Shown here in pieces: positions 1,460 through 5,997 of a stretch of 64,000 nt of DNA (position 1 is its first letter; each line of letters starts with the position of its first letter). Made by a program: the position numbers and the translations under genes. Origin of the DNA: Propioniciclava coleopterorum (GTDB lineage: Bacteria; Actinomycetota; Actinomycetes; Propionibacteriales; Propionibacteriaceae); the NCBI RefSeq assembly GCF_011393335.1, contig NZ_CP049865.1:186001-250000 (forward strand). The letters are read 5' to 3'. The notes beneath the pieces are model-generated. The model made no database searches. It was not told the DNA's origin and was given only the letters and a program-made list of their open reading frames with translations.

Positions 1460-3928
<2,469 letters not shown>

Positions 3929-3971
3929 GGTGTGTTCTCCTCGTGACGGATGGATCGTGGACGTCGGCATG

Positions 3972-4010
3972 AAAAAGCCCCTGGCTGCCGTGTGGGCATT
4001 CAGGGGCGCC
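3972..4010 (-). terminator. Attenuator hairpin in the leuS leader
   Basis: On the minus strand GCCCCTG pairs with CAGGGGC (7 bp), an inner TGCC/GGCA stem extends the helix, and five U residues follow directly. It lies about 45 bases before the leuS start and inside the leader transcript, so it acts as a conditional terminator if the leader model is right. A second GC-rich stem (GCCGCGC with GCGCGGC) lies between it and the leader ORF stop codon. Confidence 0.7.
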
Positions 4011-4033
4011 GCGCAACCGGGTGAGGCGCGCGG

Positions 4034-4069
4034 CTAGCCGAGAAGTCGCTGGTCGATGCTGCGATCCAT
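4034..4069 (-). CDS. Candidate leuS leader peptide (MDRSIDQRLLG)
   Basis: An 11-codon ORF that ends CGA-CTT-CTC-GGC-TAG, with two adjacent leucine codons (including CTT, uncommon in such GC-rich DNA) just before the stop. Its ATG lies 7 bases after a TATGAT box, so the mRNA would start at or next to the ATG and be leaderless. Two further in-frame ATGs at 4078 and 4081 overlap the -10 box and are less likely. Downstream come a GC-rich stem and the terminator hairpin. Classical attenuation works this way: stalling at the scarce codon changes the fold and prevents termination. Translation is inferred, not shown. Confidence 0.5.
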   Translation of the reverse strand: MDRSIDQRLLG

Positions 4070-4076
4070 GATCGCC

Positions 4077-4082
4077 ATCATA
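4077..4082 (-). promoter_or_regulatory. -10 box of the leuS leader promoter
   Basis: TATGAT on the minus strand, 7 bases before the leader ATG at 4069. No good -35 hexamer is seen 16-18 bases further upstream. Confidence 0.5.
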
Positions 4083-4139
4083 GCCCACCGTCGCCACGCC
4101 CTCGTCCGCCCGCCGCGCCCGCACGGCGGCCCCCACCCG

Positions 4140-5087
4140 TCAGAATCCGGACGCCGTGGCGGGCACGTCGCGGTGTCCGGCGACCAGCGCGTCCCAGTGG
4201 TTCGGGCTCAGCGCAGCCGTGTTCACCAGATCCAGCAGGTCGATCCACCCGGGCGGGCCGGCGACCCGGCCGAGCGCCTCGAGGCACACCACCTGCAGCG
4301 CCCCCTCGCCGCACAGCCACGACGTGAGCCCCAGCGCCACCAGCGCTCCCCCGCGGCACGACGGCACGCTGGCCCGCACCACCTGGAGCCACAGCCGCTG
4401 CTGCACCCGCGCCTCCTGCGGCGTCATCCCCCACAGGTGCCGGTCGAGGAAGCCGTCGTCGTGGCTGGCCAGGCACAGCAGCGTGACGTCGTCCAGATCC
4501 AGCTCCCCCGGGTCGGCGAGGTGCGCGGCCAGCAGCGCCTCCGCGCGCCCCAGCAGGTCACCGTCGTCCTGCAGCGAGGCCTCGACCCGGCGCAGCGACG
4601 CGGCGACCTCCTCGGGTGTGCGCGACGTTTCGATGAGGGCCGCGAGTTCGGCGCGCGACCGCCGCACGGGGCGTCCCTCGAAGGCCGCACGCGCGACGTG
4701 GACGTTCCCGAGCCGGTCGTACGGCGTCCCCTCGCCGTCGGGGGCATCGAACCAGCGGTCGTCCCCGACGACGAGGTAGCGCCGCTCCGTCGTGGCGGGC
4801 AGGTCGGCGTCCACCCGGGCGAGGGTGGCCCAGGCCACCGCCGGGTCTGCGCAGAAACCCAGCAGCAGGAACAGCGCCCGCGGGTAGCGCCGCCACAGGC
4901 TGTCCAGGGCGGGCGCCAGCCGTTCCTCCTCTCTGGGGAGGTCGGCGCGCGCGGTCACCAGGACATGGCCGTCCTCCACCGCCACGACCACGATGGAGTC
5001 GCACGGGTGGAAGCCGAGCAGCGTGGGGATGACCTCGACGAGGTCGGTCATCGTGCGGATGGTGGTGGGTGAGGTGGGGTGCGTCAT
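4140..5087 (-). CDS. DUF4192 domain-containing protein
   Basis: 315 residues from ATG at 5087. The N-terminus (TDLVEVIPTLLGFHPCDSIVVVAVED) is the hallmark of the actinobacterial DUF4192 family, and the domain covers most of the protein. It is predicted to be soluble, with no signal peptide or membrane segment. The role of DUF4192 is unknown. A GAGG sits very close to the start codon, and the gene seems monocistronic: leuS has its own leader promoter beginning about 60 bases downstream, and the gene upstream is divergent. A shorter start at residue 13 (MTDLVEV) is possible. Confidence 0.85.
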   Translation of the reverse strand: MTHPTSPTTIRTMTDLVEVIPTLLGFHPCDSIVVVAVEDGHVLVTARADLPREEERLAPALDSLWRRYPRALFLLLGFCADPAVAWATLARVDADLPATTERRYLVVGDDRWFDAPDGEGTPYDRLGNVHVARAAFEGRPVRRSRAELAALIETSRTPEEVAASLRRVEASLQDDGDLLGRAEALLAAHLADPGELDLDDVTLLCLASHDDGFLDRHLWGMTPQEARVQQRLWLQVVRASVPSCRGGALVALGLTSWLCGEGALQVVCLEALGRVAGPPGWIDLLDLVNTAALSPNHWDALVAGHRDVPATASGF

Positions 5088-5909: not shown

Positions 5910-5982
5910 GGGGCTATGGCGCAGTTGGTAGCGCGCTTCCATGGCATGGAAGAGGTCAGGGGTTCGAATCCCCTTAGCTCCA
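5910..5982 (+). tRNA. tRNA-Ala(GGC)
   Basis: 73 bases fold into a full cloverleaf. The acceptor stem GGGGCTA pairs with TAGCTCC and contains the G3:U70 wobble that is the identity element for alanyl-tRNA synthetase. The anticodon loop ATGGCAT gives anticodon GGC, flanked by the CTTCC/GGAAG stem, and the T arm carries GGTTCGAATCC. The 3' CCA is not encoded (the sequence after the discriminator A is CCG), so it must be added by nucleotidyltransferase. Confidence 0.98.
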
Positions 5983-5997
5983 CCGAAGGTCCCCCAG

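Follow-up and report, generated by a model that had tools for sequence, protein, structure and literature searches.

Leucine-reading leaders upstream of leuS have been described in Streptomyces. Attenuators of leuS were predicted in 2005 for S. coelicolor and S. avermitilis (PMC1262725), and an RNA-seq study of S. lividans TK24 reports a leaderless peptide, LeuL2 (MRAVRLLLSEPR), followed by a hairpin and a run of uridines (PMC8079986). As far as the available excerpts of the papers cited here by PMC number go, leaderless leucine leaders are thus already known for leuS. The preliminary description of the DNA studied here, which knew of no established leucine equivalent for leuS, needs correction on this point (PMC1262725, PMC8079986). 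The leader described below, found before leuS of Propioniciclava coleopterorum, joins the kind of switch already described in Streptomyces. The open-access literature searched yielded in its accessible portions neither a leuS leader outside Streptomyces nor a proposal of abutting hairpins. Word matches to leuS in PMC3896937, PMC9413887 and PMC11995493 were irrelevant to leuS leaders, and the accessible part of PMC13236596 does not mention leuS.

The leader lies on the minus strand of the window, the 64-kb stretch of P. coleopterorum DNA that was analysed, and consists of the following parts:

4082-4077, minus strand: -10 box TATGAT, 7 nt ahead of the leader start
4076-4070, minus strand: 7-nt spacer between TATGAT and the leader ATG
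4069-4034, minus strand: leader ORF of 11 codons, MDRSIDQRLLG by translation, probably leaderless
4040..4045, minus strand: putative regulatory Leu codons CTT CTC, CTC being the codon 9 nt before CCGC
4034-4008, minus strand: GC-rich hairpin A, GCCGCGCGCC/GGUUGCGCGGC, the proposed ribosome sensor (limits from the fold)
4007-3977, minus strand: terminator hairpin T, flush with hairpin A (limits from the fold)
3976-3972, minus strand: U-tract TTTTT (from the sequence)
3942-3937, minus strand: leuS ribosome site GAGGAG (from the sequence)
1460..3928, minus strand: leuS, leucyl-tRNA synthetase (TIGR00396)

These parts agree with the preliminary description, which had reported a TATGAT box, 7 bases, an 11-codon ORF ending in Arg-Leu-Leu-Gly-stop, a GC-rich stem and a terminator hairpin with five U residues before leuS. 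The codons of the ORF read ATG GAT CGC AGC ATC GAC CAG CGA CTT CTC GGC TAG on the minus strand. Segment 3972-4045 has a predicted fold of -41.6 kcal/mol, 4.9 SD below its own shuffles. Compared with a LeuL2-type leader, the element likewise sits directly upstream of leuS, carries a short ORF with adjacent Leu codons behind a -10 box that leaves no space for a ribosome site, and continues into a hairpin and a U-rich intrinsic terminator. The product of the gene is bacterial LeuS (TIGR00396, 947.5 bits against a cut-off of 548.4). The mechanically called leuS ORF opens further upstream, with the in-frame ATG 3970 immediately after the U-tract; we take ATG 3928, which has the ribosome site GAGGAG, as the probable start. 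The 7-nt spacing behind the -10 box suggests that transcription in P. coleopterorum starts at the leader ATG, which would make the leader leaderless.

On the two strands of the 64-kb window, this is the only site at which TAnnnT, 6-7 nt and ATG or GTG lead into a short ORF whose two Leu codons are either adjacent or one apart. A simple consensus scan of 3800-4300 gave no sigma-70 promoter, and no -35 box was seen upstream of TATGAT. Terminator T went unreported in a simple scan of the same region, whose sole terminator-like match is on the plus strand at 3842-3860. No Rfam family matched above its gathering score over the leader (M23 RNA reached 14.5 bits against 41.2), and the only such match in the window is a tRNA. 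A tRNA-Ala gene with anticodon GGC occupies 5910-5984.

To place the leader among its relatives, we compared 92 leuS loci, namely the best 80 of 580 actinobacterial relatives and 12 from the window's genus, where LeuS was matched in 12 of 13 genomes; two of the 92 are repeats of others. Of the 92, 54 satisfied a loose rule that required TAnnnT, a gap of 4-9 nt, a start codon and a short ORF with at least two Leu codons. Removal by eye of three doubtful cases (L013, L060, L094) and of L085 and L087, which repeat L003 and L004, left 49 leaders; hairpin counts refer to 48, with L081 excluded. Loci L019 and L021 fell outside the 320-nt limit of the rule and were recovered by the model R2 described below. 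The second genome match of the DNA query (L002, 84% over 42 bases) has no leader layout, looks coding by eye and was set aside.

Although the rule permitted 4-9 nt between TAnnnT and the start codon, the distance in the 49 leaders is 6 nt in 40, 7 nt in eight and 8 nt in one, as leaderless transcripts need. The start codon is ATG in 43 and GTG in six. The peptides include MRAILLLS (Arthrobacter), MRRTLLLT (Nocardioides abyssi), MRPRLLLSPPR (Actinomadura rudentiformis) and MERTTSQRLLG (Propioniciclava sinopodophylli). In all 49 leaders, the codon 9 nt ahead of the hairpin A arm encodes Leu (CTT 44, CTC 4, CTG 1), and the arm itself begins with CCGC in 47, CCAC in one and CCGT in one. CTT makes up 71 of the 133 Leu codons of the 49 leaders and none of the 167 in four genes of the window. 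The stop codon follows that Leu codon by 6 nt in 36 leaders and by 15-30 nt in 13. The gap between A and T is 0 nt in 23 of the 48 leaders, 1 nt in another 23 and 2-3 nt in two. Further leaders gave similar counts, biased in that the search model itself rewards CTT: among 71 leuS matches outside its training set the codon is CTT in 68 and CTC in three, and in 74 leaders the A-T gap does not exceed 1 nt in 62 and measures 2-5 nt in the other 12. At the base of hairpin A, three of the five base pairs are altered on both sides, each in one sequence. The element thus passed the conservation test on which the preliminary description had staked its reading, with Leu at the fixed position in 49/49 leaders, and compensatory stem changes, which it had proposed to look for, were found on this scale. 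Promoter-to-start spacing, Leu codons, the fixed distance from codon to hairpin, A, T, their abutment and their conservation can all be read from the sequences compared.

Two covariance models were used to follow the leader beyond this set. R1 was built from 48 leaders, the window's among them, and R2 from 35 leaders, none from Propionibacteriaceae, after the 11 Propionibacteriaceae of the R1 alignment, L032 and L035 had been removed. In the 3.67 Mb genome, R1 found the window site with an E value of 4.6e-7; the sole other match up to E 10, at 0.04, sits in what looks like a TetR gene and was discarded. R2 recognised the site at 2.1e-6 (next match 0.17), and thus as a profile built without its own family. 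No record named Streptomyces was used in training R1, and R1 nevertheless retrieves MRAVRLLLSEPR, the LeuL2 peptide of S. lividans.

At E 0.01, R1 matched in 152 of the 393 genomes sampled from the class (52 of 123 genera) and, within the family, in 65 of 197 genomes (12 of 29 genera). The remaining 241 class and 132 family genomes gave no match at this threshold, although strict filters lose weak matches; leuS thus often appears to lack a leader. Among the matches listed for the class, which reach E 2.8e-4 at most, leuS lies downstream in 30/30 of the best places and in 42 of 45 others, made up of 21 of the 24 weakest listed, 20/20 from mid-list and L131, which repeats top place L117. LeuS proteins of two types, about 41% identical, are found behind such leaders. 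One genome, G200 (L127, L131), has both types, with one leucine leader before each leuS. Applied to 55 loci, R2 gave matches with E values no higher than 0.01 at 16 of them, and its match at L082 had an E value of 0.53. Up to E 1, R2 found none at L008-L016, the leuS loci of Tessaracoccus, Cutibacterium, Acidipropionibacterium and other Propionibacteriaceae. R1 matched in nine of the 13 genomes of the window's genus; one of the four that lack a match has no LeuS match at the cut-off either. Three loci of the genus (L092, L093, L094) have only a divergent LeuS of 43-48% identity and no R1 match; L094 carries a possible leader, MTVPRGLLIGLR, with no clear U-tract. Within Propionibacteriaceae, the leader therefore looks patchy.

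Taken together, conservation of the Leu codons, of the hairpin and terminator and of the distance from the -10 box to the start supports a leaderless leucine-reading attenuator of leuS. The best reading of its action, and one that we consider probable, is ribosome-sensing attenuation on a leaderless transcript with hairpin A as the sensor. Transcription would begin at the leader ATG or right beside it, which would let a 70S ribosome load on the 5' end of the RNA. When charged Leu-tRNA is plentiful, the ribosome would pass both Leu codons and depart; A would then fold, T would fold flush on A, and RNA polymerase would halt at the U-tract. When Leu-tRNA is scarce, the ribosome would wait with its A site on the Leu codon 9 nt before CCGC. 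The leading edge of a ribosome reaches about 15 nt past the first base of the P site. With the Leu codon in the A site, this edge would fall on GCCGC, the conserved base of A, and A would stay open, allowing more polymerases to continue into leuS. T might be weaker in the absence of A because A no longer stacks coaxially on it, or because a hairpin-stabilised pause is lost. In 42 of the 48 leaders a pyrimidine-G step follows A at a distance of 10-12 nt, an uncontrolled count from which we derive no pause. We infer the stall, the sign of the response and the effect of A loss on T, as we do the leaderless start in P. coleopterorum.

Printed evidence on regulation by ilvB-type leaders is mixed. 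Changes of the branched-chain codons in the M. tuberculosis ilvB1 leader abolished induction (PMC13236596), whereas substitution of the candidate codons of S. coelicolor ilvB is stated to have been without effect (PMC1262725). In the model put forward for M. tuberculosis ilvB1, as excerpted, a mutually exclusive antiterminator is kept from forming by the ribosome at the stop codon (PMC13236596). This gives the first hairpin the opposite role and counts against A as the sensor.

The main alternative, which we regard as unlikely, is a classical trp-like attenuator, in which the stall frees a segment or the loop of A to form an antiterminator by pairing with one arm of T. Such pairing has been proposed elsewhere: antiterminators were marked for Streptomyces leuS by Seliverstov et al. 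(PMC1262725), in Corynebacterium ilvB-II the right shoulder of P2 is the suggested partner of the P1 loop (PMC10272879), and an anti-terminator is proposed for M. tuberculosis ilvB1 (PMC13236596). The window also admits a complex alternative fold, in which GCCUC pairs with GGGGC, GGUUGC with GCAGCC and GGCG with UGCC. However, static folding of the 48 leaders revealed no conserved antiterminator that excludes T. Leader, A, loop and downstream segments paired with the arms of T no better than shuffled sequences, with two weak excesses, namely the 5' arm of A with the 3' arm of T (-4.79 against -4.24 kcal/mol for shuffled, 42/48) and the leader with the 3' arm of T (-8.08 against -7.87 kcal/mol, 28/48). 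With GCCGC masked, T remained in the best fold of 48/48 leaders, by 2.3-12.7 kcal/mol (median 7.7), and in the window the trp-like alternative falls short of the T-containing fold by 10.1 kcal/mol; simple thermodynamics thus predicts termination either way. Natural folds that lack T are also no better than those obtained with loop A shuffled; the share of shuffles whose T-less fold equals or exceeds the natural one in stability has a median of 0.555 (window, 0.69). A conserved classical exclusion of terminator and antiterminator is therefore not supported by these predictions, which, being static, are blind to kinetic competition. Of the ribosome-mediated attenuation originally suggested, the leaderless leucine-reading attenuator is supported, while the classical switch was not found, its alternative helices not clearly exceeding those of shuffled sequences.

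Less probable still is that A acts as a positional antiterminator, a duplex flush against T that blocks the closing of T inside RNA polymerase. This duplex would form during an upstream stall of the ribosome and be masked once the ribosome has moved on to the stop codon. No base-paired antiterminator would be necessary, the conserved 0-1 nt abutment of A and T and the stop codons at or past the 5' arm of A would fit, and masking from the stop codon would agree with the M. tuberculosis ilvB1 model (PMC13236596, as excerpted). Against this, a ribosome on the invariant Leu codon nearest A, mostly the rare CTT, would cover the base of A, and A and T are both present in the best predicted structure. 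A constitutive or otherwise regulated tandem-hairpin terminator with an incidental short ORF is highly improbable. The folding of T in both modelled states would fit it, but the fixed place of the Leu codon, the rare codon choice, the promoter spacing and the similar layout before ilvB (Val/Ile/Leu codons) and a citramalate synthase gene (Ile codons) all speak against it.

The layout before these other genes emerged from the three R1 places without leuS, which precede two acetolactate synthase genes and one citramalate synthase gene. The first was named by profile match (L128) and the second by its likeness to the first (L130), with Ile-Leu-Val-Leu codons; the third (L137, G301:C68:4001-4067) has four Ile codons and two abutting hairpins before the citramalate synthase gene. 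Neither L130 nor L137 showed a -10 box at leaderless spacing. The genome of P. coleopterorum itself has an ilvB leader (L177, upstream of 3178983), whose ORF MHMIALVVRKRVA begins 6 nt after TATGCT. The GTT Val codon of this ORF precedes the CGCG of a hairpin by 9 nt, and a terminator hairpin with TTTTT adjoins that hairpin at 0 nt. With its Ile/Leu/Val codons, this leader resembles the leuS leader in layout.

We tentatively propose, as a possibility somewhat short of probable, that Actinomycetes share an attenuator in which no base-paired antiterminator takes part. The codon 9 nt before its sensor hairpin would be a branched-chain one, mostly U-ending; the hairpin would abut the terminator at 0-1 nt and set termination by stacking, pausing or sterics, and a waiting ribosome would just cover its basal pairs. 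The design would be reused, usually on leaderless transcripts, with Leu codons at leuS, Ile/Leu/Val codons at ilvB and Ile codons at the citramalate synthase gene.

What is new here is the Leu codon, mostly rare CTT, placed 9 nt before CCGC of A in 49/49 leaders, where a waiting ribosome would cover the base of A; what deserves testing is the architecture of abutting hairpins. The findings suggest that leucine control of leuS, described only for Streptomyces in the literature found, reaches a good part of the class (152/393), precedes two distant types of LeuS and includes Propionibacteriaceae. They also pose the mechanistic question of how a stalled ribosome lowers termination if no antiterminator forms.

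The trp attenuator of E. coli has regulatory codons, a first hairpin and a terminator, all shared with the leader of the window, but differs in its base-paired antiterminator and in the ribosome site of its leader peptide. Mycobacterial polycysteine leaderless sORFs, reportedly amino-acid-responsive attenuators (Canestrari, 2020), are likewise leaderless short-ORF attenuators, but they read cysteine and precede other genes.

Closer are the ilvB-II motif of Corynebacterium (PMC10272879) and ilvB1 of M. tuberculosis (PMC13236596), which combine a branched-chain leader ORF with a terminator; they differ in gene and codons, and an antiterminator is proposed in the available text of both. The abutting hairpins of the leuS leader recur before ilvB of the same genome. 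The LEU element before leuA is also an actinobacterial leader with a leucine peptide, but it forms a pseudoknot in which the leuA ribosome site is part of the base stem, and no terminator is described in the excerpt (PMC1262725). The Streptomyces leuS leaders are the closest, with the same gene, a leaderless leader peptide with a run of Leu codons, and a hairpin and U-stretch after it. They are called classical, with an antiterminator (PMC1262725, in part), whereas none was found for the leuS leaders here. The lineage of the window is Propionibacteriaceae, and where LeuL2 has three Leu codons and a TGA after the A arm, the peptide of P. coleopterorum has two Leu codons and a TAG at the start of A.
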